A stretch of DNA of 64,000 bases from Ilex aquifolium. Its lineage: Eukaryota; Streptophyta; Magnoliopsida; Aquifoliales; Aquifoliaceae. This document shows positions 10,209 through 61,912 of this stretch, one piece after another (the stretch's first letter is position 1; every line of letters begins with the position of its first letter). The notes beneath the pieces were generated by a model that saw only the letters and a program-made list of their open reading frames with translations, was not told the DNA's origin and did not search any database. Made by a program: the position numbers and the translations under genes. The stretch covers positions 24,012,744 to 24,076,743 of the forward strand of contig OX637393.1 of the NCBI GenBank assembly GCA_951799425.1. Reading direction: 5' to 3'.

Positions 10209-11899
10209 TGATGAGCACGTAGCTTTAAAGTGAAATAAACCAAGTAGGTAGTGGTATTTGGTATCATAGGCACCGGTATCTAAGCCTACTTGAATTTTGG
10301 TACCGGCACCCGCACCATTCGGTATTGGTACCTCTGTTTTCCACATTTTTGACCATGATCCACTTCGAATATGAAAACATTCAAAACATGAAAGTTGTAT
10401 ATCTGGATGTTCTCTGTATTGTGTCAAAATTGAGGCTCCATCCAACGGTTGGATCAAAAGTTATGACAAATCTACGAAATCTGGTCTTGAGCTAGCATCC
10501 CCCTTACAACCTACCGGTAGAAGACAACAAAAACCTACTAGTAGGTTTTGCCTACTGGACAAAAACCTACCGGTAGGTTTTGCTAAAAAATGCCATATTC
10601 TGCAACTCGTCCTCCACTTGCTTGGGGGGCCCACCATTGCTTCTCCCACACATTTCCTAACATTGTCTACATACAACCATGCCTACAAGACCCTAGTTGC
10701 TGAATTTTGAGGATAGATGATGGGAAATGAAGAGAGAGAAGGAGAGAGGCATGGTGGGTTCAGGCTATGCTTGCCTTAGCTTGCCAAAAGCATCACCTCA
10801 CCTCCCATTAATGGGAGGTCTGCACACACAGGCAAAGGAAAGAGGGATAGACGAAATTCACCAAGCTTTACACCATATATTCAGCATTCATACAAGCTTT
10901 GGAAGGGAGAGAGGCTACCTAAGCTTAGGAGTAGTTTTTAGAGAGAGAAGCTCCAAGGAAGAAGACATAGTTAGAGAGAGAAAGCTTAGATTTTTATATT
11001 TCTTCCATGCATTTCACTTGTAGTCTCTTGTAAGCTTCATTTATTGTCTTTAATGTCATTTATTTCAAGTACATTGCAAGTTTAAATACACCATTTACAT
11101 TCTACCATTGTTGTATGGATTTTCACTCTTCTCAAGCTTTTAAAATGGGTATTTAATGCATTTCTTCTTAGTTAACTTTTCTTGCATTAACTCAAGTTCC
11201 AATCTTCCTTTCTTTACAATGTCCCTTTACTTCATTAATGTTCTTGCATTAAATATGAGTAGCTAAGCCTTAAGTTGGCTAATCCAAGGGAGAACTCCTT
11301 TTGGGTATGCGAAATCAACTCTTTTTCATTCTTCCTCGTAGTGTACATTTATTTGGTTTGACTATGTTGAGTGTGGACATGGTTGTGAGTTCTTGATACA
11401 CCGTAGACTTGTCACGGTGTATGCTTGAATTCTCACCTCCATTTTAGTCCCGCCCTTCCTATGAATCAATCAAACATCTAGACACCATTGGAGGAAGGTC
11501 TTGAGTTAATTTGGCATTCCCATTGGAATGACCTCTTCGGATTAGCCAACACTTGTTTCCATTACATTTCTATAACCAATCTTCACTCACCAAACTCAAA
11601 CATCAAAGATTTTATACTTTTCCTTTTTCAACAAAATCATCTTTAAAACAATTCATCTCCTTCCCTGAGGAGACGACCTTGCAATACGAATTCCAAGTAA
11701 AACACGACACTCGAAAGTCTTTCTGCGCTTGGGGAGCACTTTAGTTCACACACACACACACATACATTTCATTCCACACACCCATTTTCCCATCTCTTGC
11801 ATCGAGCCCGAGTGAGAGTGACACTCACCTACACACATAAGCCTTATACACATTGACAATTCATGTTCGGAGATTAGGCACGACGGAATCAGTTAAGCA
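10209..11899 (+). repeat. Tat-like solo LTR 1 (CTACCGGTAG array)
   Basis: Starts TGATGAGCAC and ends AGTTAAGCA, with the duplication ACGTG at 10204-10208 and 11900-11904. It is 1,691 bp, a solo LTR inserted in element B gag. Much of its body (about 10700-11890) aligns along its length with solo LTR 2 and, on the other strand, with the LTR at 58272-59925: shared 'GAGAGAGAAGCTCCAAGGAAGAAGA', 'CCTGAGGAGACGACCTTG' and a (CA)n tract near 11745. The palindrome array at 10511-10581 lies in the U3 side. Carries no gene. Confidence 0.85.
10511..10581. repeat. Palindrome array, word CCTACYRGTAGG
   Basis: CTACCGGTAG (10511-10520), a perfect 20-bp palindrome centred on CTAG (10530-10549) and a perfect 20-bp palindrome centred on CCGG (10562-10581). 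The last two share A4CCTAC/GTAGGT4 arms and start 32 bp apart. Between them lies GCCTACTGGA, a half-site that reappears as a linker in other arrays. Confidence 0.85.
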
Positions 11900-12173: not shown

Positions 12174-12217
12174 AAAACCTTCCGGAAAGTTTGGCTATAA
12201 ACCTTCCGGAAGGTTTT
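12174..12217. repeat. Palindrome array, word TTCCGGAA (first part)
   Basis: Two copies of the A3CCTTCCGGAAGGT3-type palindrome, one slightly decayed, cut off from the rest of the array at 13905-14018 by the insertion of a copia solo LTR. Confidence 0.8.
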
Positions 12218-13884
12218 TGTTAGTAGTATGCTCTAAGACCAATCATGTAGATGATGCTTTAGGGTTGTACTAGCAACATTCATTACTTAATTAAATAAAA
12301 GGGAAAGTTTATTTATCATGTTTCTACTTTATTTCATTTTAATATACATGATATAGTCCATAGAGTATAAGTTAAGAAGATAGTTTTTCAAGGTGTTGAG
12401 AAGAGAAGACCTATACTTCTTTGTACTTAACTCTTAAATGGTCCTAGTCATAGGATTATTATTTGGGCATTACGTAATCCGGATAGACTAGCACACACTA
12501 TGTTTACTCATATTTGATATGAGGTGACTCGTCCAAGTCACTAGTGTTGGGACACTAAAGCAGGTGTGTGGGTGCTTGTTAGAGAACAAGTACACTGAAC
12601 GTGACCATTGACTAATTTAGGATTTTTCATATGGATTTTTACATGTTTGTCAATGTTAAATCTTAAAGTTATAGTTATGCAACTGATACTTAGACTTGAG
12701 ACACCATGGTTGTCTTGTGCATGGACTTCTATGCTTTAACTATACAACATATTCATATACTAACCATGTAACTTGGATATGTATTGTTGGACATAGTTAG
12801 GCATGCATGAAGACTTATGAGTGTACAAAATAGAATCTATTATCCTTAGTAATTAAAGGGAGAATGTCCTATATGATCTTCTGGGATATGACTCAAAGAG
12901 TCCTTGGCCAAGGCAGAATGACAATTAGAAAAGACTTTCTAATTGATCATTAAGAGTTATAGTCCTAAGATCGAACACATAAGATTGAATTAGGGGTTTG
13001 ACAGTAATTTCATACCCTAGTAATTCAATTGGGGCATTATGTGATAGAAGGATTGAATTGCATGGCAACTATAGACTGAATGGGTTCTTTACCAACTTCG
13101 TGCTATCCGGAGGTTGATCATGATATGTTGCTAGGTGTCACTCATGATTAGTAGAAGCACGAAGAATGAAATTAATATAAATATATTAATTGTTCTTCAT
13201 AAAGGGAGAATTAGAAGAGTTCTAATTCAAGCTAAATTAGAAAGAGTTCTAATTTGAGATACTACTTGTAGTTAGTATCGAATGCCTACAACTGGGTATG
13301 CTTGAACCTATAGGGTCACACACAATATAATTGATTGGAAACTAAAGGATAAAAGAGAGACAACCAATTAAGAGTTAATTGGGGTGAAAACCTAATTAAG
13401 AGTTAATTAGGGACTTTATTACAATTAATGTTAATAAATGGGTTATATGTAATTATGAGATAATTGCAACTTGACCCAAATTAGGATTAGAGCCTTTAAA
13501 GCTCTATAAATACCTTTATGTAGGGTGTGGATATTAGATATAACAACTCTCTTGCTAGCACAAGAAGAACCACCCCTCATTCTCTCTCTCTCTCTACTAG
13601 TTTTATCAATGGCTAAAGTAGATCCTTCAAGTTTGGCAATTCGTGTGGATACCGATAGAGGCCAAACGTTTGCGAGGCTTGGGGTAAAGATCAAATTTAG
13701 ATTTGAAGATTTAAAGTTTTTGAGAATGCTTGAAGATTGGTAAAGGCACGCTTCAAAAGGTAACCCTTAATCTTCTCTATAGATCTAAAGTTTCTCAGTT
13801 TGTATTAAACATGAATAGATCTTGGTATGAGGAATCAAATTATTTTTTTTAAATTTCGCTGCGTTTATTATATGATTCCTGTCA
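12218..13884 (+). repeat. Ty1/copia solo LTR nested in Tat-like solo LTR 2
   Basis: Starts TGTTAGTAGTATG and ends CCTGTCA, with the duplication GTTTT at 12213-12217 and 13885-13889. It has a TATA box (TATAAATA, 13505-13512), a (CT)n leader near 13580 and the 'AAATTTCGCTGCGTTTATTATATGA'-like end seen in many plant copia LTRs. It is 1,667 bp and solo. It split the palindrome array of its host LTR. Confidence 0.8.
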
Positions 13885-13904
13885 GTTTTGCCTACTGGAA
13901 TGAA

Positions 13905-14018
13905 GTTTCCGGAAGGTTTGCATCGACCTTTTGGAAGGTTTTGTTCACTGAATTGCTGTTTTAACTGTTCCTGCACAAACCTTCCGGAAGGTTTGCATCG
14001 ACCTTCCGGAAGGTTTTG
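13905..14018. repeat. Palindrome array, word TTCCGGAA (second part)
   Basis: Four units in two pairs, the partners of each pair 22 bp apart and joined by GGTTTGCATCGACC. It begins after the linker CCTACTGGAAT. The CATCGACC linker is also found in the family A LTR array at 26236-26301. Confidence 0.85.
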
Positions 14019-22103: not shown

Positions 22104-23699
22104 TGATGAGTACATAATATTTCATTATTTTATATCTCATATCATTCATCTTAGCTTTGTTTATTAGTTATATGTTTTGTTTTAGTGTAGTTTTGTCTTT
22201 TATGGATAATATTTGTGTTTGCAGGAAAATGAAGTTAAGAGCAAGGTTTTATACTCATTTTAATGCTATGGAGGACTTGGAGGATGATTTAGGAGATCTA
22301 GGAGTCAAACCAAGAGCATTGCAAGCATAAAAGACCAGTTCTACCGGTTCATCAGCAAGCGAAATTGAGTTCTACCAGTAGTAGTTGATTCCTATCGGTC
22401 GGTAGAAGTAAAACAAAGACCTGTTCTACCTAAAGGTTGGAAATAGAAAATTGTTCTACTAGTAGAAGAGAAGAGCTACCAGTTCGTGCAAGACAGTGAG
22501 CAGTTATATCGGTAGGTTGAATTATGCTTTCTACCGATAGGTCAGGGTTAAAATTCAGCAATGGCTCTTTCTCCTATGCGTTGACTGACTGAATATTCAA
22601 TTATATCTTCCATGATTTTCAAGGCTTATTTGGAGGAGAAAGGGACAAGATAGGGAAGGGATTTTGACTGGCCATATCTTAGAGATATTCTTGGAGATAT
22701 TGTCGGAGATTTTTTAACAATAAGAGATAGACGTAAAAGGAAAGATGGTCTCTAGAAAATCAGTTGTATCTCTCTCTCTCTCTCTCCCCTTATTTTTCCT
22801 ATAAATACCAACCCATAGGGGACCTCTAGACATCGGTTTTCTCATGGGAAATTTTCCAAGGGGCTGCTCCTCCTCCTTCTTCTTCATTGTTCTTTACTTA
22901 GGTTTAGATTGCAAGCAAGGTTCTTCATTATTTTATTTATAGTTTTCAATTTTGCTGAACACTACGGTATTTCTATTTCTTTTATTGTAATTACTTTCAA
23001 TTCTAGTTTCAATACGAAGTGTTCTTTAAATTCCAATTTCAATACAAGTTTTATTTATTTGCATTAAATTACCATGTCTTCTTTAATTGCTTTTGATTTT
23101 CTCTTTCATTATGTTTGAGTAATACTTTCGGTATAATCAGATAAGGGATTCTTATTCGTGAATGGGGATTTTGAATTAACTAGGGCTTTTCCAAATATTA
23201 AGTTATGTTGTTGATTGAATAATTACAGTTGAAAACATGGGTAATATGTATATCTTCTTGCTTATTCGTAGACAATTTAGACTTAACATGTATAGTTCTT
23301 GGAATTATTGAAATCAACATGAATGCAATGCTTTCAAAATTAATTCAATCAATTTAAATACACATTAGTTGTTTTCTTGATTTAAGTGTAATATTTTCCG
23401 TTCAATGGCGTTTGATTACAATCTTGAATGAATTATAAATTAGGTCAATTTTCTTATATTCACGGTGAGATGAACTCTAAAGATTAACCTGTTTCTTTTA
23501 ATATTATCTTTTAGTTTTTCAATCAGTCATACAATTTTCCAAAACCCAAAATTTTTTTTATTTTTTGTTTTAAGTTTGTCACCTTTTGAATTTGTCCTTC
23601 GTTTTCCCTGAAGATACGACATCGGTAATCGACTGAGTTACTAAACGATACATTCTTGCGCTTTAGAACCACTTTATTATCTACCAACTTTTAAGGTCA
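22104..23699 (+). repeat. Tat-like element D, 5' LTR
   Basis: Starts TGATGAGTAC, like solo LTR 1, and ends TTAAGGTCA, eight bases before a tRNA-Asp type primer site. TATA box TATAAATA at 22800-22807, a (CT)n leader just before it, and the 'CCCTGAAGATACGACATCGG…GCGCTTTAGAACCAC' R/U5 sequence near 23610-23670. Palindrome array at 22336-22560, upstream of the TATA box. About 1.6 kb, inserted in the integrase end of element B. Confidence 0.8.
22336..22560. repeat. Palindrome array, words TTCTACCGGT / TTCTACTAGTAGAA
   Basis: A perfect 14-bp palindrome at 22454-22467 plus several partial copies (CTACCGGTTC, CTACCAGTAG, CTACCGATAGG). The words overlap those of solo LTR 1. The whole set lies between LTR start and TATA box. 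Confidence 0.65.
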
Positions 23700-25914: not shown

Positions 25915-27096
25915 TGTGACGCCCCTAAAACCGGGGGGGTCCTTTATTAACCATTGATCACCCATCAACCCGCGAAAATACCCATGATTGTCGCAGAACC
26001 CGACATCACTTTAATAGCATCCCCTTAACCGGGATCACAAAACCCAAAATTTGGGTAGAGTCTCCCTTGTACCGGAACTCCCAATGCATAACCTGTGTAC
26101 ACGGCGTTCACGTGACCCATCTGAGGTCCAATATACAACAATTTATCCTCATTTAATGTTCATTTATATCATTGGAACAAAAGGGCTCAAGGCCCGGAAG
26201 CGTAGGAAGTCATTCTTAAAATTTCAGATTTTTGGAAAACCTTCCGGAAGGTTTTTGGTCGACCTTCCAAAAGGTTTTCATCGACCTCCCGGAAGGTTTT
26301 GCCTGTTTTCCTAGGATTCCTTCCTCTTTCAATTCAAATCCATTCCAAATCAATCCAACACATGTATAATGAAAATTTTCATATAAAACATGGTTCATAC
26401 AAGTTCTATTACATCATATCCATACAATTACATGTTCAAAACAAATTTGCATGAAGTTTTACAAAAATAAGATTGAAAAGCCACATGTCGGCTTTTCTTC
26501 AACCATGGGGGCCCGATTGAGAGTCGTTCGTCAGCATATATCCCGCACCTGAAATGTTGTCCCATAAAGGGTGAGCCACACTCAATAGGGTATCTCCTAA
26601 ATAGGCTACTCCCCAACCTAAGTTCATATGAAATGTTCACATGCAACATTCAACAAGCAACAACCATCCCAAACAAGAATATACAATTCAATGTTGGAAT
26701 TCTACCATGTCATGCCATGAAATGAGATGAGACTCACTCATGCACTTTAACCCGAGCCCTCTCTGGCTCCCACAACACAATGCATATGCCATGTGTATAA
26801 AACTGGGCATTCCAAGCCCCCGCCAGTGATGTTGCACATCCAATGACATTTAAAACTCTCCGGGTCTTTCTTGGGGTGGGGTATTTATGGGCTTACACTA
26901 AGGGTTACCAAACCCACACGGAATTCATAGGCTTACACCAAGGGTTCCGGATACACCCACACACTTTATGGACTAAACCAAGGGAGTGCATATCCCAAGT
27001 AACCGGGTCTTGCACCTGAGGGATCGTCTAGCCCTTCTTGCTAACCCTGACCCAATTTTCAAAGCAAACCATGCGACTCATTCGAACCATCGGCCC
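25915..27096 (-). repeat. A-2 3' LTR, outer piece
   Basis: Plus-strand start TGTGACGCCCC, equivalent to the family A LTR end. It continues beyond the nested element at 38392-39035. TTCCGGAA palindrome array at 26236-26301. Confidence 0.85.
26236..26301. repeat. Palindrome array in family A LTR, word TTCCGGAA
   Basis: Three units, 22-23 bp apart, joined by linkers ending in TCGACC. The flanks after it (CCTGTTTTCCTA… CAATCCAACACATGTATAATG) are those of the arrays at 43765 and 49816. The word and CATCGACC linker match the array in the Tat-like LTR at 13905. Confidence 0.85.
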
Positions 27097-29483: not shown

Positions 29484-29486
29484 GTT

Positions 29487-34310: not shown

Positions 34311-34319
34311 GCTTAGGGT

Positions 34320-35873: not shown

Positions 35874-35892
35874 TCTTTTAAGGGGGGAAAAA
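35874..35892 (+). other. A-1 polypurine tract
   Basis: TTTTAAGGGGGGAAAAA directly before the 3' LTR; it primes plus-strand DNA. The same motif, reversed, lies at 51986-52002 in element A-3. Confidence 0.9.
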
Positions 35893-38386: not shown

Positions 38387-38391
38387 GGCCC

Positions 38392-43464: not shown

Positions 43465-45908
43465 TGTGACACCCCTAAAATCGGGGGTCCTTTGTCAAAC
43501 CTTTGATCATCCATCAACCTGTGAAAATACCAGTGAATGTCGCATAAACCGACACCACGGCACAAAAATAAATGTTTTGGACAAGGTCTCCCTTGTACCG
43601 GGAACTCCCAAACGCCGAACTTGTGTATATTTAAACCACGTGACCCATCCGAGGTCCAATATACATCAATGTATACTCCATTATTGTCCATTTACATCAT
43701 TTGTATAAAAGGACTCCAAGCCCAGAAGCATAGGAAAGCATTCTTAAAATTTCAGATTTTTGAAAAACCTTTCGGAAGGTTTTTGTCTACCTTCCGGAAG
43801 GTTTTGCCAACTACAAAAGTTCTTCTGGAAGGTTTGCCTTCTATGAAATTTCTTCCGGAAGGTTTTCTCTGTTTTCCTACGGCTCCTTCCTTTTGCAATT
43901 CCAATCCATTCCAAACTCATTCAAAACCACCCAACACATGTATAATGAAGTTTTTCATATAAAACATGGTCCATAAGGTCTATTACAATCATTTTCAAAT
44001 ATTTACATGCCCCAAAATCAAATTTCACAAAGTTTTACAAAAACTCTAAGTTAAAGCTACATTTCGGTTTTTCTTCATCATTGAGGCCCCGAGTGCGAGC
44101 CATCCATCGGTGTGTAACCCGCACCTGAAATATTTTTCCCATATAGGGTGAGCCACGCTCAATAGAGTATCTCCTACAGATGTTACTCCCCAACCTAAGT
44201 GCATATGAAATGTTCACATGCAACAACCATCCCAAACAAGAACATGCAATTCAATGTTGGAATTATAATGTTATGCCATGAAATAAGATGAGACTCACTC
44301 ATGCAACTCAATTCGAGCCCCTTACCAACTCCCACAACACATGCAATGCCAATGTATATAAAATCGGGCATTCCAAGCCCCGCTAAAGGTGTTATACATC
44401 CAATGAATTTTTTAAAATTCAGGGTCTTTCTTGGGGTGGATATTCATGGACTTACACCAACGGTTACCCAACCGACATGGAATTCTTGGACTTTCACCAA
44501 CGGTTCCGCGTACACCGACACACTTTATGGACTAAACCAACGGAGTGCGTATCCGAAGTAACCGGGTCTTGCACCCAAGGGATAGTCTAGCCCTGTTTGC
44601 TAACCCCGACCCAATTTTCAATGCAAACCATGCGACTCAGCCAGATCTTCGATCCAACTTTTTTTCGAGCTCATCCATCACCCACCAAGTGTGGTGTTTG
44701 ATGTCAACCATGCACACACACCCACAATTGCGATGTCTCCGTGCATATGCAATGTAATGCACAATTGCGATACAACAAATATGTCCAATGTGCTATGAAT
44801 GCCATATGGACCAATTAACCACGCATTTCAACATATATCATGACCAATTATATCATATGCATATATAATCACCAAAATTCATCACCATGTCAACACATCA
44901 ATAAACATATATCAACATTTTATACCCAACAACCAATCACAAACATGTTATTACATAAATTATGTCAATAACACACTTCCTTCACAAAGGCACAATATAA
45001 ACATATAGTATGCCCATATAATATCCAATTCCAAGAAATTACACAAGTAACTTCCACATATCAATTCAAACTAGAGATTGATTTTAGACCATTTCTATAC
45101 CCATTTCCATATTCAACCACAATAGGCAATTGTTAATGTTTCTAACAACCTACCCACCTCATATAAACACCCTAGGTTGGAACTAAGTCTATGTAGGAGG
45201 GAACCCTACCTCTTGAAGCGTACAACAAAATGTAGAGAACTTCAAGAACACAACCCCAACTCCAAACCCTTGATTTCTCAAAATCTCCTCTTTGGATCTT
45301 CGGTGAAATCTTTCGTTCTTGGTATAGTTGTGTAGCTCTCATCAAGGTGATCGACTTTAACTCTTGGTCCGAGTCGATTCGACCAACGGAGCTTCGTGGA
45401 TTGTAGAGGGAAGGTGGAGCTTTTGATTTTTTTTCTTCTCTTTTCCCTCTCTTCTCTTCCAACGTGAGAACCCAGCTGATGTGTGGGGAGAAATCAGATA
45501 TTTCTCCCCTATTTATACCCTTTAATTCCGCGGTCCACGTCGCGTCACATGTTCCCTATTTCTCGGGTCTGTTTTCGCCCCGAAACGATTAAATTTCATC
45601 CCGGTTTACATTCAAAATATTTTTATATGAACTTTCTTTAAATTATAAGTAAATTTTATAAATTTTATTTTTTGGGTCGTTTTTGAGGTCACCCGACACT
45701 TGGTCGCCTCGTAAAACGCGTAAAATCTAACTATCTCAGAATTCGACGAAAATTATCTAGGTAACTAGAATTCGCAAAACGAATCCAACGGGGAGGTCCA
45801 TTTCATCATCCGAGCTCTAGAGAAATATGGGTTCTCAACCCGCACTATAGTGGCATTTTACCGTTTTATCCCTTCTCATAAAAAGTTTAAATTTACCCGA
45901 GTTTTACA
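43465..45908 (-). repeat. A-2 5' LTR
   Basis: Plus-strand reading TGTGACACCCC…GAGTTTTACA, 2,444 bp; minus-strand TATA box at 45510-45517. TTCCGGAA array at 43765-43875, about 300 bp from the LTR's 3' end, in the transcribed part. Confidence 0.92.
43765..43875. repeat. Palindrome array in A-2 5' LTR, word TTCCGGAA
   Basis: Four units (one perfect in CTACCTTCCGGAAGG, others one base off) at steps of about 22, 31 and 30 bp. Flanks are the same as at 26236 and 49816. Confidence 0.82.
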
Positions 45909-46287: not shown

Positions 46288-46296
46288 TATTATTTA

Positions 46297-46841: not shown

Positions 46842-46850
46842 TATTATTTA

Positions 46851-49542: not shown

Positions 49543-51985
49543 TGTGACGCCCCAAAAATCCAGGGGTCCGTTGATCAACCCATCAACCCGCGGAATACCC
49601 GTGAATGCCGGTTAACCCGACACCGCGGCACCACATTCCCTTTATCGGGATTTATAAAAAAAATAAAAGTCCAGTTAATTTAGGTTTATCGACCCATCCG
49701 AGGTCCAATATACCACCATTGGTATCATATTATTTTCCATTTATAACATTGGAAAGAAGGAAGACATAGTCCAAAGACTTGGCAAAAGAATAAAAAAAAT
49801 TCTGAGTTTTTGGAAAGTGTACCGGTACGGTTAACTCTCTGGACTGAACCGTACCGGTACGCCCAGTCCTCTGGACAGCAGTGTACCGATACGCGTACCA
49901 GTACGGTCTGCCCAGTTTTGTTCGTTTCACCTGTTTTCCAATTCCAATCGACTCCAAGCCTCACCAAATCCATCCCAAACTTATACAACATGTATTTACA
50001 CGTTAAAACATGATTGATACAAGTTATATTATAATTATTGACATAAATTTACATACCCACACTAAGTTTTCATAAATGTCTTTACAAAAACTTCAAGTAA
50101 AGCCACATTCCGGTTTTCTTCCTCCTCAAGTGCCCGAGTGAGTGCCGTCCGTCGGCGTAAAACCCGCACCTGAAATGTTTTCCCGTATAGGGTGAGCCAC
50201 GCTCAATAGAATATCCGCTACAGAGGCTACTCCCCACCTAGATGCATATGGAGTGTACACATGCAACAATCAACATCCATAACATTCCAAGCAAGAATAT
50301 GCATTCAATGTTGGAATTTCTCATGTCATGCCATGAAATGAGATGAGACTCACTCATGTGACTCAACCCGAGTCTTTACCGACTCCCACAACACAATGCA
50401 ATGCACTTGTAACTTAAAATCTTTCCTTTACGAAAATCCATCCAATGATCGTTTTAACAAAATCATGTATTTATAAAACCAACCATCATTGGATAACACT
50501 CATTGAATGAGTATTTTATAAAACAAAACCATGTGTCTTTTTGGGTATCGAATTCTCGAATTCGCACCGCTGGCTCCGCACGCCATTTACACTTTTCCGG
50601 AATTTCACCATAGGGGAGTGTATGAACCAAGTAACCGGGATTCGCACCCGAGGGAGTGTCTAGCCCTTCTTGCTATACCCGACACAAGTTTTCCATGCAA
50701 CCATGCGACTCAAGGGGATCTTCGATCCAACCTTTCCGAGACCACATACCAACCACCAAATGAGGTGATCAACCATGCATACACACACTCACACTCATGA
50801 CTAATGCTCATGAATGTGATGCCTACATCATGCCCAATATGCTATGCATGCCCAATGAGCAATTTTCACATATCATCATGTACCATAGCAATTTATATCA
50901 TATGCATATAAATTTCTATGAACTATCACAATGCTAATCATATCATGAAGCATATGTCCACATGTCAACAACAATGCTCAAACATGTTACTGCAATTTCA
51001 TCAAAACAACATTTTCAAATCACTCAAGGCATTTTATCAAACACCTTCAAGGCAAACATATCATGTTATCACCAATTGTTCTCACATAACATTAAGTATC
51101 AAGAAAATTACCTAAGTAACTTTCACATCTCAAATTCAAGCTAGGATTTGTTTTAAGTCGTTTCTAGGCTCTTTTCCTCATGACCATAACCATATAAACA
51201 TATGGGTTCATCTATACATCTCCACACCCAACCCTTGTCCTACGGACACCATAGGATCGGAATATACCAAAGTAGGAAGAAACCCTACCTCTTGAAGCGT
51301 AAATCACCCGAAGGAAGCTTCAAGAACACTTCCCAAGCCCAAAAGTTGATTTCTCCCAAATCTCCTCCTTTGGATCTTCGGTGAAATCTCTCGTCTTTGG
51401 TGTGGTTGCGTAGGTCTCGTCGAGGAGATGAACTTTAGCTCTTGGCTCGACGAATTCCGACCGACGGAACTCCGGGAATTGAAGAGGAAAGTTTTGTTTT
51501 CTCTCTTTCTCTCCCTCTTTCTCTCCAACGTTGAAGACCAGCTGAATATCAGAGATTTTTGTGCAAAATATCTAATTTTTAACCCTATTTATAATTTCCA
51601 AGACTTGGTTCACATAGTGCCACACGCCCCCCACTTGTCCGGGTCCGTTTCCGCCCCGAAACAATTTATTTGATCCCGGTTTAATTCCAAATTAATTTTA
51701 TTTGAAATTTAATCCAATTCTAAGGAAATTTTATAAAATTTATTTTGTGGAGACCTTTGTGAGATCAGCCGCCACCCAGTCGCCTCGCATTACGTGCAAA
51801 ATTCGACTATCTCGGAATTCGACGAAATTAGCCTGGGTGACTCGGTTTCGCGATACGAATCAAATGGCGAAGTCCGTTGTGTCATACGGGCTCTAAAGAG
51901 TACGTATTTTAATTCCGAATTACAGTGACAAAATGACCTTTTTGCCCCTTTTTAAGAAAAATTTCAAATTTACCCGGGTTGTACA
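49543..51985 (-). repeat. A-3 3' LTR
   Basis: Plus-strand reading TGTGACGCCCC…CCGGGTTGTACA, 2,443 bp, minus-strand TATA box at 51586-51593. GTACCGGTAC-type array at 49816-49915 in the slot where A-2 has TTCCGGAA. Confidence 0.92.
49816..49915. repeat. Palindrome array in A-3 LTR, word GTACCGGTAC
   Basis: Perfect copies at about 49818 and 49851, and relatives GTACCGATACG and CGTACCAGTACG. It is followed by CCCAGTTTTG… CCTGTTTTCCAATTCCAATC, flanks shared with the family B solo LTR array at 54082. Confidence 0.85.
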
Positions 51986-53279
51986 TTCTTCCCCCTTTAA
52001 AAGAATTTCGTCCCCGAAATTCACACACCCATGCACATTTAACCACATGCATATGCTATAAGTATATCATACTCATAACTACAAAAATGTACCTCCATCC
52101 TCGAATAAGAATGGATAATTGGTACGTATAGTGTCCTCACGCTCCCATGTCGCCTCCTCCACTCCCCGGTGCTGCCACAACACCTCACTAGCCTCACGGT
52201 CTTGCCTCGCAAAACCTGATCCCAGCTATCCATGATACATACCGGTCCCTCCTCGAAGGTCTCATCCGCATCAACAATCAACTCCCCCCAATCCACCACA
52301 TGTGTCGGATCTGGAGTATACTTCCGGAGCATAGAGACATGGAATACCGCATGAACACCCGATAGATTTGGCGGTAATGCCAACCGGTAAGCGACTGTAC
52401 CTACCCTCTCGACTACCTCGAAGGGCCCGATATACCTCGGCGACAGCTTTCCCCGCTTGCCGAACCTGACCACTCCTCTCTTAGGCATCACCTTCAAGAA
52501 GACATGATCTCCCACCTCAAACTCTAAAGGTCGTCGCCGTCTGTCGGCGTAGCTCTTCTGCCGGCTCTGAGCCGTGAGAAGACGTTTTCGTATCAAGTCC
52601 ATGTAACAACCCAAGTACCACCCTGGACGGCATTACATTCTAAAACATTCACATCATGAGAGCACTAAAATAATCCATCAATAAATAAGACTTCATAAAG
52701 TCATCCATAAAATTTACAAGATCATCCCCAAAAGAATAGGCCCATTTTGGCCTTTACATTCCAAAATTTATTTAAAGTTGCACAGCGGAATAAACAAAAG
52801 AAAACTAGGCTATACAAGGTTCAAAATAAATATCCTAGTCTAGAACAAAAGAAAGTGTCGCTCTAGGCGTCCACCTCGGGATCCACATTCCCGTCCAGTG
52901 GAGTCTCCCAAGTAGCGGGCTCCTCGACCCCTACGTCCTCCTCTTGTAGGAAATCTGAAAAATGTTAGCGGTAGGGGGTGAGCACAAAGCTCTGTAGAAC
53001 AATTCTCTCAAACCCATACAAGGTTTAGAAAAGCATTCAAAACGGTCGGTCTCATTTCACAAATATCATACATAACTTTTGAAGTAAAGCAGTGGCATTT
53101 AATAGATCTCAAGTTTACGGAACAACAATAATTGAATGAGTAAATGAAACCACTATACATTTAGCAAAACATTTCCAATATAATCCAGTCCTCCATTCAC
53201 AATTTCGAACGATTCTTTCGGTAAGTGGCATACTTTAGGGTAACCTCCACCTCCCGTTTAGGTCATCTTTGATTCTCAA

Positions 53280-53450
53280 GCATCCTTACAAGGAACCTCT
53301 TGAGAATGAGTGAGCATCCTTACAAGGAACCTCTTGGGAAGGGGGTGAGCATCCTTACAAGGAACCTCTCACAAATCACTTCATGGCTTCCCAAGCATCC
53401 TTACAAGGAACCTCTTGGAAAGGGGTGAGCATCCTTACAAGGAACCTCTC
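53280..53450. repeat. Five direct repeats of a 21-base unit
   Basis: GCATCCTTACAAGGAACCTCT occurs five times, at spacings of about 33-46 bases, with two alternating spacer types (TTGRGAA… and CACAA…). Not seen in the other family B LTRs here. Confidence 0.9.
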
Positions 53451-54081
53451 ACAATTGGGTATCACAAGCAACCCAACCAAGAATACAATCCCAACATTTA
53501 TCTCCATTTACAATCATTTATCCAAAATCTCCAAATTTATGCATGTGACATTTTCCATAACAACCAAGAAATTACATGAGATCACAATAACATTATTTTG
53601 CTATTCAATATCAAACACTAAAGTGGTGATGGTTAGAACAAGGAAAATGTAAAGAGGAAAGATTCATTTTTCTTAAAACTAGGGTTTGAGAATGAGAAAT
53701 GGACCTTTAATGGTTACCCAACTACTACAATGTTTAAAACATGGTAATAAATGCAAGAGGAGCAAGAATCAAGTAAATAATAGCAAGTGTATATGATTTT
53801 TAACCAAAAGAATACATATAATTTAACCCTAGTCTCAATGTAAGTGAGTGAGAGAAAACCCCTACCTTAGTGTTCTTGAGCTCTAAGGCTTGAATCTTGA
53901 CTCACTCTTAATCTTGTGTTCTTCCCTTGGGTCTTGAGTCTCTCTCTTCCTCTCTTTCTCTCCTAGGGTTCTAAGGTGTTTAGTGTGAGAGTGGAAACGA
54001 AAAAATGGGACAAATGAGGCTAAAAGGGGTGTTTTAAAACACCAAAATCCCGACTTTTACTGTTCGGCGGGCGTCAGACAG

Positions 54082-54182
54082 ATGGTACCGGTACCCAGTA
54101 CCGGTACCAGAAACCTTCTGGAATCGGGGGTACCGGTAATCAGTACCGGTACCATTCAGTACCGGTACCCAGTACCGGTACC
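54082..54182. repeat. Palindrome array in family B solo LTR, word GTACCGGTAC
   Basis: A pair (13 bp apart), the linker GAAACCTTCTGGAATCG, then four units at 13, 16 and 13 bp. About 320 bp from the LTR's 5' end. The flanks after it are homologous to those of the family A arrays. Confidence 0.92.
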
Positions 54183-55489
54183 AATTACCCAGTTTTGCCT
54201 ATTTCTTTTGTTTTCCATTTCCAATCCATTCCAAAACTAACCAAATCCATCACAAACCTTTCCAACACATATTTATACACCAAACCTATCTAATACAAGT
54301 TATAGGACCTAACATTTTATATTTTCACTCACTAAACTAAATTTCCACTATGATTTTCCATAACATTTTAAATCTTTTACTTTTCAATTTTTTTTACAAA
54401 GTTCAACCCACTTCAATTCCCCTATCCACATCTTTACAACCATTATTTGCTATATCTATATATCCATATGCATATATAAAAGAAAATGTGGGGTGTTACA
54501 GTCCACCTTCTCAGAGGTGTCCCTAACCAAATCCGGACCCGTAGAGGGTCTCTCTCCTACCTCCGTCCAACAAACCGGAGATCGACAAGGCCTCCCATAT
54601 AGTGCCTCGTAAGGTGTCATCTGTATACTCGCCTGATAACTGTTGTTGTAGGCGAACTCCACCAAGGGTAAGTGCTCTTCCCAGCTACCCTTGAGATCTA
54701 GGATGCATGCCCGTAGCATGTCTTCTAAAGTCTGAATGGTACGCTCTGACTGGCCGTCAGTCTGGGGATGAAAAGCAGTGCTCATCATCAACTGTGTCCC
54801 CATGGCTCGTTGGAAACTCTCCCAAAAATGAGCCGTAAACTTGGGATCCCGATCTGATACTATAGATATGGGCACCCCATGCAACCGGACAATCTCCCGT
54901 ACATACAACCTGCAAAATTCCTCCAGTGTGAAGGTCATCCGCACTGTCAAAAAGTGTGCCGACTTTGTAAGCCGGTCCACTATCACCCACACCGCGTCAT
55001 GTCCCCGCGATGTCCGTGGCAAGTGAGTCACAAAGTCCATCGTGACATGCTCCCACTTCCACTCTGCTACCTCCAAAGGCTGGAGTAACCCCACTGGCCT
55101 TTCGTGCTCAGCCTTGACCTGTTGACACGTGAGACATCGGCTAACAAAATCCCCGACGTGTCTCTTCATCCCGCTCCAATAATACTGGCGACGAAGATCA
55201 TGATACATCTTCGTGCCACCTGGATGCACTGTAAAACGAGAGCAATGGAACTCCCTGAGGATCTCCTCTCTCAGCTCCGTCGATTGGGGAACCACAATCC
55301 TTCCCCTAAACCGAAGACTACCATCCGTGTGAATGGCCCAGCCTTCGTCACCTGTACCTGACTGTACTCGGTCTTTAATGGACAATATCTCTGGGTCTTG
55401 CCTCTGGGACTCAATCACCCTGTTCAGTAGGGAAGGCGTAGCCACCAAACTCCCCAAAGTGCCCTGAGCCTGACCCGCGTAGCGTAGTC

Positions 55490-57400
55490 CAAACTATCCC
55501 ACAGTCTCGAGCATCTGCCACTCCTGGGAAGCCACATTAGCCAAAACTCCCCGTGACTTCCGGCTAAATGCATCAGCCACCACATTTACCTTACCGGGAT
55601 GGTAATGCAAAGTGAAGTCATAGTCTTCCAGATACTCCATCCACCTGCGTTGCCTCATGTTGAGGTCCCGCTGTGTAAAAATGTACTTCAGACTCTTGTG
55701 GTCCGAAAACACCTCGAACTGCTCACCGTATAGATAGTGGCGCCAAGCCTTCAAGGCAAGGACAATGGCCGCCAACTCCATGTCATGCGTAGGGTAATTC
55801 TGCTCATGATTCTTTAACTGCCGAGAACCATAAGTCACTACCCTTCCGGACTGCATCAAAACGCAACCAAGTCCGTCCTTCGAGGAATCACAAAACACCG
55901 TGTACCTCTGTCCCCTTTCTGGGACTATCAGAATAGGAGCTGAAGTAAGCCTCCTCTTCAACTCCTGGAATGCCTTCTCACACGAGTCATTCCACTCAAA
56001 CTTGACCTCTTTCCGGGTCAACTTGGTCATAGGTGCGGCTAGTCGACAGAAGTCCTCGATGAACCTCCGGTAGTACCCTGCTAATCCCAAGAAACTACGT
56101 ATCTCGAAGACTGACTTCGGCCTCTCCCAATTCATGACTGCCTCAACCTTCTCCAGATCCACGGATACACCCGAAACCGACACCACATGTCCCAAAAACT
56201 TCACCTCCGTAAGCCAAAATTCACACTTGCTGAATTTGGCGTACAACTGGTAGTCTCTCAAGGTCTGGAGAACAATCCTCAAGTGACCTTCATGCTCCTC
56301 CTCAGACTTGGAGTAGATCAAGATGTCGTCAACGAAGACCACAACGAACTTATCTAGGTAGGGTTGGAACACCCTATGCATGAGATCCATGAATGCCGCT
56401 AGAGCATTCGTCAATCCGAAAGGCATCACTGTGAACTCAAAATGTCCATATCGCGTCCTAAACGCCGTCTTAGGGATATCTGCTTCCCTAACCCTCAACT
56501 GATGGTAACCGGTGTGGAGATCTATCTTGGAGTAGACCCGCGCCCCTCTCAGTTGATCAAACAAATCATCAATCCTCGGCAAATGGTACCTATTCTTGAT
56601 AGTAACCCTATTTAATTGTCGGTAGTCTATGCATAGTCGATGGGTCTTGTCCTTCTTCTTGGCAAACAATACCGGAGCGCCCCAAGGTGAAGTGCTCGGT
56701 CTAATAAAATCCTTGTCCAATAATTCCTGTAATTGGACCTTGAGTTCTTGCAACTCAGCAGGTGCCATTCTATGTGGAGTCATAGAAATAGGCGATGTAC
56801 CGAGGTGTAACTCAATGGTGAAGTCTACATCCCTAAGTGGAGGTAATCCCGGTAGTTCATCCGAAAAAACATCCTCATACTCACACACCACCCGAGGTAG
56901 CCCAAACTCCTGTCTCGCCTCGTCCTCCAGGGTGAGGCTCGCAAGCCAACCCATCAACTGCCCGTGACATCGAGAGTCATACACGGCTTGGGGTAAAACA
57001 CCATGCTTTTCCCCTTGGAATTTGAAACAAACACCATCCGGCGTATAAGCAGTAACCCTCTTACGATCACAATCAATGACGACTCGGTGTGCCGTCAACC
57101 AGTCCATGCCAAGGATAACATCAAACTCTGACATGTCCATGACCCTAAGGTCCATGGTGAGTAGAATCCCCGAGATCTCTAACTCACAACCCCAACATAT
57201 CTGATCAATACTCACCCTAGTTCCTAGGGGAGAACTCACATGCAATGGCTCTTCCAAGGTTTCAACCTCTAAGCCCAAATCTTTAACACATGATGCAGCA
57301 ATAAAAGAATGAGATGCACCAGAGTCAAATAACACCCTTGCCCATAAGCGAGAGAGTAGAAATGTACCCTGAATGACTGACTGATCCATGGGCTCAGTCT
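55490..57400 (-). pseudogene. A-3 protease, reverse transcriptase, RNase H
   Basis: One long open stretch with protease [14 protein letters not shown] (about 57330) and [54 protein letters not shown] (near 56310); RNase [30 protein letters not shown] and [17 protein letters not shown] (near 55570). The best-kept pol of the window besides A-1. Confidence 0.92.
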
Positions 57401-58271
57401 GAGGTGTAATGGCGTAGACACGCCCCTGGGTCCCTGAAGTCCCGGCTTGTGAGCCCTGGCCTCGACCTCGACCCATGCCCTGGCCCATCTGGCCTGATTG
57501 CGGGATTCCCGCTCGTGAAGTAGTAGGGGCCTGAGTAGCGCCCTGAGACTGGAAATGACTTCCCTGGCCCATGGGGGGGTAGGGAGGAATGTAATGAGTC
57601 TGTGGCTGCCCTACTGAAGACTGAGACTAGGATGTCCCAAAGCCCTAGGATCCCTGTCGCTACGGACAATCCCGCTTCATGTGCCCAGGTTGGTGGCAAT
57701 GATAGCAAGTCTTTTGGCCTGCCTGGGAGGAAGGCCTCTAATTTCTCCCGCCTTGGGAGGATTGACCCTGGCCTTGGCCTTGATAGCCACGGCCCTGTGG
57801 AGTCGAAGTCCTTTGCTTCTTCCCCGAACTTGAAGAAAAAGATTGACCCTCCTTATTCTTATCTTTACCACCCGCTTCTCGGATGTTCCGAGCGTCGTCC
57901 ATCTCTCTCTCAATGGCCATAGATGTCTCGACCATCGAGTCCAAGTCTTGCAGGAGAAGTCCCACAATTTTACCCCGGATGGACAATTTCAAACCATCCT
58001 TAAACTTTCTCACCTTGGCCATATCTGTGGCCACATAATCGTCGGCGAAACGTGCTAATTCCGTGAACTTAGCCACGTATTCCAACACTGTCATTGTCCC
58101 TTGTTTCAAATCTAGGAATTCTCGAGCTTTAGCTTGCCGGACAGACGCCGGAAAGTATTTGCCCATGAAAAACTCTTTGAACTCCTCCCATGTCATCACC
58201 TCCAAATTCTTAGAGGCCTTTGCCCAATCCCACCATACTTGGAATTCTCCTTCCAGCTGAAAAGTAGCTAG
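57401..58271 (-). pseudogene. A-3 gag remnant
   Basis: FMGKYFPASVRQAKAREFL, VLEYVAKFTELARFADDY, the DDARNIREAGGKDKNKEGQS charged stretch, a Gln/Gly-rich region and a knuckle region near 57660-57710. The N-terminal part is cut off by the Tat-like LTR at 58272. Broken. Confidence 0.85.
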
Positions 58272-59925
58272 TGATTGAGCAAAAACAAGCCTATTCCTAA
58301 CCCCTAATTACTATCCCTCAAATGATGCAATGTATGAGCGGAAGGAAGGATTTCTCCCCCTTTAGGATAGTGTGAAAAGAAAGGGCAATAGGGAAGGATA
58401 TAAGTCAGTGGGAATGTGATAGTTGCATGCACAAAAATGCTCCCCAATCGCAAGGAGACTTTCGTGGGTCGTCTTTTACTTGGTGGTAGTCCAAGGTCGT
58501 TTCCACGGGGAAGGAAGTAAACCAATTTGAAAGTGATTTGGGAAAAGAAAGTGTAAAATTCTTGTTGTTGGAAATTGTTTGGTGAAGTGTGTGTTGGTGA
58601 AATTAGAATGAGAAAACAAGTGTTGGCAATTCCAAGAGATCCCTCCAATGGGTATACTATCTCAACTCAAAACACTCCTCCGATTGAGCAAGAATGAACG
58701 GTTGATTCACGGAAAGCCGAGGATGATGATGGTGAGTGCCTAAGCATAAACCGTGACTAGGCCTACGGGTTATCAAAGACTCACCAAATCATCCACCTTC
58801 AATCCGGTCAAACCGAACCATGGGACTCTAAAGGGAAGGTGTAGAAAGAGTTGAAATGGTATACCCCAAATGAGGATTCCCCTTGGTCTTGCCAACAAAA
58901 AGTGCTTAGCTACTCATACTTGAACTAGACATGATAATGTAAAGGTAATGCATTCTAAGGCTATGGAGTTTTGAAGTACCTAAGCACAAGAAATCATAGA
59001 CTAGAAGTGAATGGCATGAAAATCTATTTTATAGCTATGAACATGAATAACTTTTGAAGCATTAATGGTAGAACTTAAATGGGAGCATTAAACTAGCAAT
59101 CACATAAGGGAAAATGACATTAATGGCATTCATTCATGATATAAAGGTTCCTACCATTGATTACAAGACAATGCAGCAAAAGAAATGCAAAAATCACCAC
59201 TTTCTCTCTCTAAAACTACTATTCATTGTCTTCCTCGCCAGAGCTTCTCTCTCTAAAAAACTATCTAATGTAATGCATGCCCCCATTTCTTGCAGGAGAC
59301 TCTTCCTTTTCCAAAAACGTGCCTGGAGAGAGAAGTGGGTCTACAGATGTGATTTTCCTTCATAGGGATGCAGCAGCCAGGGAAAGACATGGGGTGGCAG
59401 AGAATGTCTGCACACCCAGCACATCTCATCCTCTCACTCTTCATTCAATGCCTTAACTCCACAAGTCTAGAAGGGAGTGTGAATCATGATGAACAGTAAG
59501 GTGGGCGTATCAGAGAAAAGCATGGAGGGGTCCACAAGACAGCTGAGCAGATCTGCAGAATTTGAGCACTTCAGGAAATCAGTACCGGTACTGGGTACCG
59601 GTACTGCGATTCCAGTAGGTTTTCAGTACCGGTACTGGGTACCGGTACCATTTGGTACCGGTACCGAGTACCGGTACTGTTATGCATCCTTTTCTGAATT
59701 TCTTGATTTCTTTGCTCCCGATCTATCCTCAAACTATCATTTCAACTCCTTTCATCCCAAGTGGTATGGGAGGGTCTTTAAAGGCCATATTTAGCTTCAT
59801 TCAACTACAATACAACAAATTGATGTTAAGACTTCAATCATCATAACTTAGATTATTTAAAGCTCAAAAGCAAGTGAAATGAGTTGATTAGCATCTTAAA
59901 AATATACAAAGTTGTGTGCTAATCA
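58272..59925 (-). repeat. C-3 3' LTR
   Basis: Minus strand reads TGATTAGCAC…TTGCTCAATCA, 1,654 bp. Aligned to solo LTRs 1 and 2 on the opposite strand, with shared blocks around 58440-58520 (AGTCTCCTTGCG…CAAGGTCGTTTCC). Array at 59581-59686 in the U3 side. This copy, next to an internal region, identifies solo LTRs 1 and 2 as Tat-like. Confidence 0.88.
59581..59686. repeat. Palindrome array in C-3 LTR, word GTACCGGTAC
   Basis: A pair at 13 bp, the linker CGATTCCAGTAGGTTTT, then four units at 13, 16 and 13 bp: the same plan and linker as the family B solo LTR array at 54082, although the two LTRs are otherwise unrelated. Confidence 0.93.
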
Positions 59926-59938
59926 CACCCCCCAACTT
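59926..59938 (-). other. C-3 polypurine tract
   Basis: Minus-strand AAGTTGGGGGGTG directly before the LTR start TGATTAG. Confidence 0.8.
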
Positions 59939-60244
59939 AAGTTTTGCTAGTCCCTTAGCAAAATGTTCATTTCCCAGCACAACCAAAGCAACCATAAATC
60001 ACACAATCAATCAATTTAAACAACCATTCAGTCAAATGAAAAGTAAAAATCAAAATGCAATTAACAACATAAATAATGAGCAAAAAAGGAATAACTGTGG
60101 ATTCATAAATTGTGAACAAAGTTGGAGTACAAAACGGAGTAGGACATTGAAAAGAACAATCAAAAGAAAAGCCTAATCTCCCCTCCCCAACTTCACCTAA
60201 TCCCAAAACAAAAAAGAAACAAAGCACAAGAATCCCAAACACAA

Positions 60245-61441
60245 CTACTCTCCATCACTCTCATCATCACCCTCAAATTCATCCCCCTCCTCATCTTCTT
60301 CATCATCTTCAGCCTCAGAATCTTCCTCCTCCACATCCATTCTAGAGGTTGAAGGAGCAGCAGGAACTTCTGGGACAGCTTTCTCAGGAAATGTGTGTAC
60401 ATACATCTCCTTCAACATTGTTGCCATTTCCTGAACTGAGGTCTTGATTTCATGCGCTGTCTTTTCCAGGGCACCAAGTCTCTGATGGGTTGAGCATTTC
60501 ACAACAGGCTTGAATGGCATGGTGGGCACAGCAGGTGCAACATCCTCTTCAGAGTCAGATTGAGCCCGATCCCCACGGCTCATGGCCTTCCTTTTCTGAC
60601 TGCTGGCCTTCCCAATAGCTCCAAACTCAGGGGGGGTCAGTTTTTCCAGTCCATAGCCCTTAACCTTAGCATGGTCACAAAGTCGGGTAACCAAGCTTCC
60701 GTATGGTAGGTTGGCCATCGGCTTCTCAGTGGTGGCAAAGTCCTTCATCACATCCCAAATGATAAGGGCAAAATCCATTGTTTTGCCCGACACGACGGTA
60801 TCCAGGAGGTTCAACTTTTCCACATTTGGTTTCTTCTCTGCGAATTTTGGGTAAAGATTATAGTGAAGGAGTTTGTTAAGAAGCCCATAAACATGCTTCA
60901 ACCCCCCACTCTGAAAGGTTCCCCTGAACGTAGCAGGATCCTCATACATCAACTCGACAAGATCCTCTTTAGTCTTCGGCTTACCCATTTTGCGAGGATA
61001 AACGGGTGGTCTGGATGGGGGTCTCTGGTAATCCCCAAGGCATGTGGCTATGACATCAGGGGTCACCACAATAATCTTACCCCTAACATTTGCTCTCAAC
61101 ACTCCCTCATCATCATTCTCGATGAAATTTAGTGAACGGTAAAACTCCCTCACCATGGCCAAATTGTATCCCACAACCTCCTTAAACCAGAATTGCATCC
61201 CATGCCCCTCAATGATTTTCACAGCAGGATGAATGGGGGAAAGGGAAAGCCTATCCAAAAACCGTTCACAGGTCACATTCTTACCGTCAATCAACTGGCG
61301 TCGAGCATCCCTCTTGTCCTTCTTTCTCTGCTTCTCAAGGTCCCCACTCGATCCTTCTCCACTTCTTTTGCGGCTGGCAGAACCCATGGCAGGAGGAGAA
61401 CTGGGCTCTGGTCCTGATCCGACCATCTTGGTGCGAGGCAT
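60245..61441 (-). CDS. Extra ORF (aORF) of Tat-like element, nuclear-type protein, 398 aa, intact
   Basis: Intact frame from ATG at 61441 to the stop at 60245. Residues 1-50 are Ser/Pro-rich, then strongly basic (RKRS, KQRKKDKRDARRQ). Residues 55-260 resemble the 'putative plant transposon protein' domain (Pfam PF20167, from memory): FLDRLSLSPIHP, VREFYRSL, RGKIIVVTPDVIATCLG. A second basic patch SQKRKAMSRG lies near 281-290, a heptad-like helix (LGALEKTAHEIKTSVQEM) at 322-339, and a very acidic tail at 369-398. There is no signal peptide or membrane segment, so this is not envelope-like; basic patches plus acidic tail suggest a nuclear protein, perhaps DNA- or chromatin-binding (inference). 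It sits between spacer and polypurine tract, the place of aORFs or env-like ORFs in Tat/Athila elements, and has its own upstream TATA box and palindrome array. Function unknown. A host gene is unlikely given this setting. Confidence 0.85.
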   Translation of the reverse strand: MPRTKMVGSGPEPSSPPAMGSASRKRSGEGSSGDLEKQRKKDKRDARRQLIDGKNVTCERFLDRLSLSPIHPAVKIIEGHGMQFWFKEVVGYNLAMVREFYRSLNFIENDDEGVLRANVRGKIIVVTPDVIATCLGDYQRPPSRPPVYPRKMGKPKTKEDLVELMYEDPATFRGTFQSGGLKHVYGLLNKLLHYNLYPKFAEKKPNVEKLNLLDTVVSGKTMDFALIIWDVMKDFATTEKPMANLPYGSLVTRLCDHAKVKGYGLEKLTPPEFGAIGKASSQKRKAMSRGDRAQSDSEEDVAPAVPTMPFKPVVKCSTHQRLGALEKTAHEIKTSVQEMATMLKEMYVHTFPEKAVPEVPAAPSTSRMDVEEEDSEAEDDEEDEEGDEFEGDDESDGE

Positions 61442-61539
61442 TGTGTAATGAATGGAGAGAATAGGAGGAACTTGAGATTCGGCTATAAGGGTAGGGTAAA
61501 ATGGAGGAGGACTGTGGAAAATAATCTAGCTCAAGGGGA

Positions 61540-61546
61540 TTTTATA
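61540..61546 (-). promoter_or_regulatory. TATA box of a candidate internal promoter for the aORF
   Basis: Minus strand TATAAAA (in AGTCTATAAAATCCCC) ends 98 bases upstream of the ATG at 61441, giving a predicted leader of about 70 nt. It is preceded by the tandem duplication (61551-61724) and the palindrome array (61776-61912). This is a sequence-based prediction. Confidence 0.6.
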
Positions 61547-61550
61547 GACT

Positions 61551-61724
61551 GAGGGGGAAGAAAAAGGGTTTTGGACCCTTGGAGTTCCATCGGGTAGGGG
61601 GGAAGGAGATAGGGGAGGAGTAAATGGGGAGAGTGAAGAGGGAAAGAGAAAGGGTTCTTGACCCTTGGAGTGCCGTCGGGTAGGGGGGAAGGAGATAGGG
61701 AAGGAGTAAATGAGGGAAATGAAA
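61551..61724. repeat. 87-bp tandem duplication upstream of the aORF TATA box
   Basis: Two units, 61551-61637 and 61638-61724, about 85-90 percent alike, both containing GACCCTTGGAGT and GGGTAGGGGGGAAGGAGATA. Purine-rich on the plus strand. Confidence 0.9.
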
Positions 61725-61775
61725 GGTAGAACTTAGGTTTTGAAATTAAAAGCCCTAAAAAATTTTTCCGTCAGG

Positions 61776-61912
61776 CAAACGGTACCGGTACTCGATACCG
61801 GTACCATTTGGTACCGGTACTGGGTACCGGTACTGCGATTCCAGTAGGTTTTTGGTACCGGTACCTAGTACCGGTACCAAATGGTACCGGTACCAAGTAC
61901 CGGTACTGTTCT
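61776..61912. repeat. Palindrome array upstream of the aORF, word GTACCGGTAC
   Basis: Eight units: four at 13, 16 and 13 bp, the linker CGATTCCAGTAGGTTTT, then four more at 13, 16 and 13 bp. One unit has a single base change (ATACCGGTAC). This is the fullest and most regular array in the window. It is not in an LTR: no TGATTAG start lies upstream at the expected distance. Confidence 0.93.

Follow-up and report, generated by a model that had tools for sequence, protein, structure and literature searches.

Retrotransposons of two lineages, found in a 64,000-nucleotide stretch of the Ilex aquifolium genome (contig OX637393.1, positions 24,012,744 to 24,076,743; hereafter the window), carry arrays of short palindromes centred on CCGG within their long terminal repeats (LTRs). 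One such array, a cassette of GTACCGGTAC units joined by a linker, stands both in a chromovirus-type LTR and in a Tat-like element, between which no homology was detected in the sequence flanking it. In both lineages, moreover, the palindrome type differs between related copies at matching LTR positions. Found in both LTR groups and also ahead of an extra open reading frame (ORF) of the Tat-like element, these arrays are likely, though far from certain, to be enhancer-type control arrays for a symmetric (dimeric) DNA-binding factor.

The shared cassette and its linker

The window holds 20 exact copies of GTACCGGTAC. In 100 shuffles the mean was 0.02 and no shuffle had more than 1, which rules out a chance cluster. 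An earlier note on this DNA, made from the sequence alone, had described three arrays of this word, and they are borne out; 18 of the 20 copies lie within them. The remaining two, at 49819 and 49851, form part of a fourth, irregular array, which the note had omitted along with two more palindrome types and the switching between types in both lineages. A simple repeat scattered outside LTR elements, the possibility that the note had set against its own reading, is likewise rejected for this stretch, because every exact copy in the window lies within an LTR or the Tat-like element. The three arrays and the chromovirus-side linker are as follows.

54085..54181, minus strand: GTACCGGTAC array, 2 units + linker + 4 units as read on the plus strand, starting about 318 bp into the solo LTR chrB
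54111..54126, plus strand: linker core AAACCTTCTGGAATCG of the chrB array, resembling a decayed CTTCCGGAAG unit
59582..59677, minus strand: GTACCGGTAC array, 2 units + linker + 4 units, starting 248 bp into the Tat-like LTR TatC
61782..61906, minus strand: GTACCGGTAC array, 4 units + linker + 4 units, in the internal part of the element that bears TatC, upstream of the extra ORF

Units of the first array start at 54085 and 54098 and, beyond the linker, at 54130, 54143, 54159 and 54172; those of the second at 59582 and 59595, then 59626, 59639, 59655 and 59668; and those of the third at 61782, 61795, 61811 and 61824, then 61855, 61868, 61884 and 61897. The 13/16/13-bp spacing that had been claimed for groups of four holds in all four groups when two one-base variants, at 54130 (GTACCGGTAA) and 61795 (ATACCGGTAC), are counted; exact matches alone number five, six and seven in the first, second and third array. 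Across the linker, the unit-to-unit distance is 31-32 bp. The linker, said in the note to be the same throughout, has an identical core, AAACCTACTGGAATCG, in both Tat-like arrays (59582 and 61782), and the chrB core matches it at 15 of 16 positions. When 22-mers were scored against the Tat linker, the chrB score was reached at none of the 63,826 positions outside the three linkers, and the next-best place in the window (13880) falls in another Tat-like array.

The Tat LTR array and the Tat internal array are identical at 88 of 96 positions, compared with 81 of 96 between the chrB array and the inverted internal array and 59 of 67 between the chrB array and the inverted Tat LTR array. The chrB cassette, whose linker runs against the sense of its LTR, is thus inverted, and its divergence from the Tat arrays somewhat exceeds that between the two of them, which argues against very recent local copying. 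The note had left it between movement and parallel upkeep; the linker match and the identical spacing suggest that convergence alone does not account for the cassette, which looks to be shared through descent. Because the linker word CCTACTGGAA is also found in TatB (13890s) and partly in TatA, two further Tat-like LTRs, the cassette may have passed from Tat-like elements to a chromovirus.

Flanks were compared over 300 bp on each side, with z-scores taken from 100 single-base shuffles. Six Tat-side and four chromovirus-side arrays, two sides and two orientations gave 96 cross-lineage comparisons, none of which exceeded z 4; eight of these were void, since a copia-like LTR has inserted directly upstream of the array piece at 13905 and makes up its flank on that side. 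Extended cross-lineage homology around the array was rejected on these comparisons, in agreement with the note, which saw none between the LTRs outside it.

Palindrome types and the elements that carry them

The window contains 30 perfect CCGG-centred 10-bp palindromes, against a mean of 2.2 and a maximum of 5 in 20 shuffles. A scan for all 12-bp palindromes with at least four G/C, allowing two mismatches and requiring three copies per 200 bp, returned 14 clusters, against 0-2 in each of eight locally shuffled windows. Ten are of CCGG type and lie within eight LTRs and ahead of one extra ORF. With each unit typed by whichever of three consensus words it resembles most, GTACCGGTAC-type clusters are found at 61781, 54084, 59581, 49818 and, decayed, 10269; CTTCCGGAAG-type clusters at 13905, 43768 and 26240; and CTACCGGTAG-type clusters at 10510 and 22340, the latter with every unit imperfect. 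What distinguishes these words are symmetric changes made in pairs, G/C at positions 1/10 and A/T at positions 3/8, CTACCGGTAG being intermediate between the other two, and the GTACCGGTAC and CTTCCGGAAG types are present in both lineages. Perfect units make up 28 of 49, and C to T or G to A accounts for 22 of 30 changes in the imperfect ones, a pattern that methylation of these sites would be predicted to leave. The arrays beyond the three main ones are listed below.

49819..49904, minus strand: irregular GTACCGGTAC-type array of four units, two of them exact, inside LTR chrA1 and about 275-360 bp short of its 3' end
43769..43861, minus strand: CTTCCGGAAG array of four units in LTR chrA2 (about 43465-45908)
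26241..26295, minus strand: CTTCCGGAAG array of three units in the truncated LTR chrA3, with a spacer word, CATCGA, also found in TatB
10270..10331, plus strand: decayed GTACCGGTAC-type cluster of three imperfect units in TatA
10511..10576, plus strand: CTACCGGTAG array (with CTACTAGTAG) in TatA, about 303 bp into an LTR that starts at about 10207
12179..14012, plus strand: CTTCCGGAAG array of TatB, six units and one linker-like unit with the flanks read together, starting 247 bp into the LTR
22341..22540, plus strand: CTACCGGTAG-type array whose six units are all imperfect, covering 230-430 bp from the start (about 22111) of a Tat/Athila-like LTR

The flanks of chrA1, chrA2 and chrA3 are homologous on both sides (z 26-72 among the three, 26-58 for chrA1 against the other two), and despite this chrA1 carries GTACCGGTAC and the other two carry CTTCCGGAAG. 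TatC, TatA and TatB are homologous downstream (z 14-32), each with a different type; upstream, TatC and TatA do not exceed z 4, and TatC matches the LTR of the 22340 array at z 6.2. A stretch of about 190 bp upstream of the array is common to chrB and chrA (z 7-15), with no match downstream. Six LTRs of the chrA group could be aligned: the array and its neighbourhood are present in three and replaced by a gap in three, two of the latter being both LTRs of one element. In this group the array is a present/absent module which, together with the lack of detected cross-lineage flank homology, upholds the description of the cassette as modular.

The TatB array is split by a solo copia-like LTR (12218-13884, or 12213-13889 with its duplications) with the target site duplication (TSD) GTTTT, and this insertion sits at the edge of a palindrome unit. 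Further on, the TatB LTR contains a 179-bp direct repeat, 14550-14728 and 14810-14987, that is 98.9 % identical and begins TGTAACACCC. The LTR of the array at 22340 reads as Tat/Athila-like and not as a chromovirus one; TATAAATA follows about 258 bp downstream of the array.

LTR ends, primer binding sites (PBS) and polypurine tracts (PPT) were placed by eye, LTR starts being accurate to a few bases.

52602..54500, minus strand: chrB, solo LTR (TGTAAC...GTTACA), TSD GTCCA at 52597-52601 and 54501-54505; pol homology runs on across the LTR
49543..58271, minus strand: chromovirus-type element (gag, protease, reverse transcriptase, RNase H, integrase) split by chrB; Pfam RVT_1 1.8e-35, Integrase_H2C2 4.2e-19
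58272..~59927, minus strand: TatC, Tat-like minus-sense 3' LTR, preceded by a G-rich tract, AAGTTGGGGGG, read by eye as PPT; homologous to TatA and TatB

Gypsy-order pol (reverse transcriptase and RNase H, then integrase) was found for the element at 49543-58271, whose 3' LTR is chrA1 (about 51985-49543), and for a plus-strand chromovirus-type element at 27096-38387. The latter has two LTR copies, 96.8 % identical, in neither of which a palindrome array was found, and Pfam detected no chromodomain at E 0.1 in 34323-35732. The chromovirus label is our assumption from the pol domains of neighbouring elements and from sequence features. For chrB, a solo LTR devoid of its own pol and nested in a gypsy-type element with pol on both sides, membership of the chromovirus lineage is indirect and appears from partial similarity to LTRs adjoining such pol. 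The element at 58272-64000 is presumably Tat-like, judging from the look of its LTR, PBS and PPT and from the position of its ORF, its pol lying outside the window.

Several other repeated words were noticed. Four of the 14 clusters (53277, 5829, 7944 and 9801) consist of different words, and at 53277-53437, inside the chrB LTR, a word with AGCATCCTTACAAGGAACCTCT is repeated directly, five times in all. At 45914-46120, TGCGTCCGGACGCA and then degenerate GCGTCC/GGACGC words precede TATAAATAG near 46187, possibly another type before a TATA box; yet another type may be present at 2325-2361, where CACCATCCGGATGGTG lies about 70 bp from a minus-strand TATAAATA near 2265-2275. Loosely repeated words resembling CATCTGGATG/CGTCTAGACG and CATTCGAATG lie at 4920-5170 and 7469-7620, the second set directly ahead of CTATAAATACC near 7670. 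A foldback-like stretch of 549 bp (46295-46843) has a self-complementarity of 81 %. Other LTR-like sequences, such as 1-1016, about 7200-9242 and 12218-13884, were covered by the 12-bp palindrome scan only. Outside holly, a pattern scan of viral contigs for the paired unit returned one IMG/VR contig only, with a different tandem repeat, and two further patterns returned none; tandem repeats containing GTACCGGTAC were seen at 4222-4416 of an unrelated IMG/VR contig, L001. The same kind of scan over genome contigs gave 18 bacterial records, taken as chance from their titles.

A putative control array and the alternatives

The eight units of the internal array of the Tat-like element, the nearest about 340 bp upstream, precede an ORF that lies between the array and the 3' LTR.

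60245..61441, minus strand: this ORF, of 398 amino acids (aa) and with the same sense as the element; Pfam Transposase_32 (PF20167), E 3.9e-24
61540..61548, minus strand: TATA-like TCTATAAAA (TATAAAA), which follows the internal array at about 235 bp and is itself followed, after about 100 bp, by the ATG

The TATAAAA about 100 bp before the ATG supports a promoter-like setting, and to that extent the internal promoter proposed in the note gains support. In the ORF product, the last 38 residues have a net charge of -21; comparison with solved structures gave seven matches, the best at E 0.75, and single-sequence folding was poor (mean pLDDT 40.4). Within the LTRs, the main array starts 230-318 bp in for five of the eight that bear one (chrB 318, TatC 248, TatA 303, TatB 247, and the LTR from 22111 230).

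These features would fit the following mechanism. Each unit is predicted to seat one symmetric (dimeric) DNA-binding factor, host or element-encoded, which would read the half-site NTWCC and, once bound, switch the element on. The array would tolerate either orientation and drive the LTR together with the extra ORF of the Tat-like element; a copy before the ORF would place both under one control. Families may change or borrow arrays to keep an effective factor or to escape silencing. Plant factors of LBD and SBP type were considered as candidate readers of palindromes with CCGG and GTAC.

Several observations weigh against this proposal. Only four of the nine arrays are followed by a TATAWAW within 300 bp (five motifs in sense, where 1.4 are expected, and two in antisense), and none was found at that distance in TatA, TatB, TatC, chrA2 or chrB, the last having only TTTTAAAA. 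In chrA1 and chrA2, the arrays lie about 2.05-2.16 kb into the LTR, and the first TATA-like site, by eye, is about 1.7 kb upstream of them. This position is at odds with a simple enhancer ahead of its promoter, except where a second site, such as 49745 in chrA1, serves instead. A point missed in the note is that in this chromovirus-type group the array stands close to the LTR 3' end and does not precede the first TATA-like site. Furthermore, half of the six chrA-group LTRs lack an array altogether, the positional match of the Tat-like LTRs consists of downstream flanks and distance only, and the lineage of chrB is assigned indirectly.

The folding of the arrays also weighs against the proposal, and it favours an alternative that is considered unlikely, namely that transcribed arrays (in the 3' U3 and internal RNA) fold into long hairpins that feed or resist small-RNA silencing, an idea already put forward for the palindromes of maize Sireviruses. 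Against dinucleotide shuffles, all six tested arrays fold strongly (z -4.3 to -14.4). When the spacers alone are shuffled and the units kept, z remains negative in seven of nine arrays, reaching -3.0 in TatA, and TatB is matched or beaten by 9 of 200 shuffles. The predominance of C to T and G to A changes, 22 of 30, would suit methylated, silenced DNA, and in maize Sireviruses small RNAs are reported to map in excess to clusters of palindromes (Bousios 2016, as relayed in passages of PMC10760457 and PMC5311732). However, the fixed-unit control leaves eight of nine arrays above z -2, so that the unit palindromes carry most of the fold signal, with a weaker array-wide part possible, and families differ in how many units they have and how far apart these stand. 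Selection for a whole-array hairpin as the main cause was rejected on this ground, TatA being an exception within a general negative lean.

Other alternatives concern the origin of the arrays. Local gene conversion, by which the chrB array was overwritten from its Tat-like neighbour about 5 kb away with no transfer between families, would explain why the exact cassette and linker were seen in these two elements only in the 64-kb window, and both copies are nested in one element; the approximately 190 bp common to chrA and chrB upstream (z 7-15) also mean that an array may have pre-existed in chrB. It is nevertheless rather improbable, given that the chrB identities of 81/96 and 59/67 against 88/96 between the Tat arrays do not indicate a very recent event, that chrA1 has units of GTACCGGTAC type too, as does TatA in decayed form, and that CTTCCGGAAG-type arrays occur in both lineages. 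Similarly low weight is given to convergence through a host factor, in which arrays evolved independently in each family under common site and spacing rules: symmetric differences between types, similar LTR placement without flank homology and the same plan in Ty1/copia Sireviruses (PMC2829016) all agree with it, but not the 15/16 linker match, unequalled elsewhere in the window and with its next-best place in another Tat-like array. A mobile short repeat or satellite, arriving by small independent insertions or growing by slippage without function, could account for the present/absent polymorphism and the variable number of units. It appears very improbable in view of the lack of target duplications at array edges by eye, the confinement of exact GTACCGGTAC to LTRs and the Tat-like element, and the palindromy kept through three types.

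A bolder form of the enhancer proposal, regarded as doubtful, is a trans-acting circuit. The PF20167 ORF product, with its basic N-terminus and acidic tail, would be an activator or anti-silencer targeting the arrays in its own LTR and before its own gene in a positive loop; chromoviruses would have captured the arrays to hitchhike, and the palindrome types would represent successive or competing specificities. If the enhancer-type reading held genome-wide, palindrome arrays would serve plant LTR retrotransposons in general as a control module, instead of being peculiar to Sireviruses, and would be exchanged between distant lineages and change type in parallel. A factor reading NTWCC-GGWAN half-sites, host- or element-encoded, would then offer a handle on how elements wake, and sharing, theft or competition for one activator among unrelated transposons would become testable.

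Comparison with known systems

The closest parallel is the repeated motif of Sireviruses (Ty1/copia). Passages of Bousios et al. (2010, PMC2829016) describe family-specific palindromes, 12 of 13 motifs bearing a CGG-CCG signature, in multi-copy arrays that start 200-400 bp into the LTR, upstream of the TATA box, with at least 8 copies per Sirevirus. The motif recurs before the env gene, with 77 of 79 linker-domain copies upstream of it, which makes the Sirevirus link drawn in the earlier note not only right but closer than stated. In the holly window the palindromic unit is present as an overlapping CCGG, and extra copies stand before an additional gene between pol and the 3' LTR (eight units before the 398-aa ORF). 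Five of the eight LTRs fall inside the Sirevirus placement range, chrA1 and chrA2 lie outside it, and chrA3 is truncated. In copy number, the Tat-like element has 14 units (six in the LTR and eight internal), the solo LTR chrB six and the chrA LTRs three to four.

Unlike Sirevirus motifs, the arrays here, of 3-8 units each, lie in chromovirus-type and Tat-like LTRs, not in copia ones, and one cassette with its linker is common to two lineages, with the type differing at matching sites. For chrA1, which adjoins gypsy-order pol, a Ty1/copia Sirevirus host does not fit; chrB has no pol of its own, and that of the Tat-like element lies outside the window. The arrays are not classed as the Sirevirus motif because their carriers are apparently of another superfamily; the likeness would be one of working, not of membership. 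The motif is termed Sirevirus-specific and absent from classic retrotransposons in passages of the same paper, whose comparison set was Ty1/copia. In the titles and abstract openings of the papers retrieved, no such arrays were reported for gypsy LTRs.

Two other systems share parts of the plan. In Arabidopsis VANDAL elements, motif arrays in non-coding element DNA are targeted by the element-encoded anti-silencing factor VANC. VANC6 motifs are also present in AT9TSD1, an element unrelated to these, and VANC6 lines show it hypomethylated, according to portions of Hosaka et al. (2017, PMC5735166). That system and the holly arrays both consist of short motifs arrayed in non-coding DNA and diverged among related elements; the differences are that VANDAL is a DNA transposon, that its motifs are non-palindromic (e.g. 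YAGTATTAY) and that a binding protein is demonstrated for VANC only. Retand and Grande elements also have an extra gene between pol and the 3' LTR, which in Grande is transcribed from its own upstream promoter (passages of Vicient 2020, PMC7264820). Their additional ORFs are mostly antisense and typically Transposase_28 (PF04195), and the passages on them in PMC7264820 and in Vicient 2025 (PMC11963269) give no sense ORF with a known domain. The holly ORF departs from this trait in being sense and Transposase_32, with the LTR array repeated upstream of it. Judged from the elements as they are read in this window, what appears to be new is a Sirevirus-like array plan in apparent Ty3/gypsy elements, with evidence of exchange between them.

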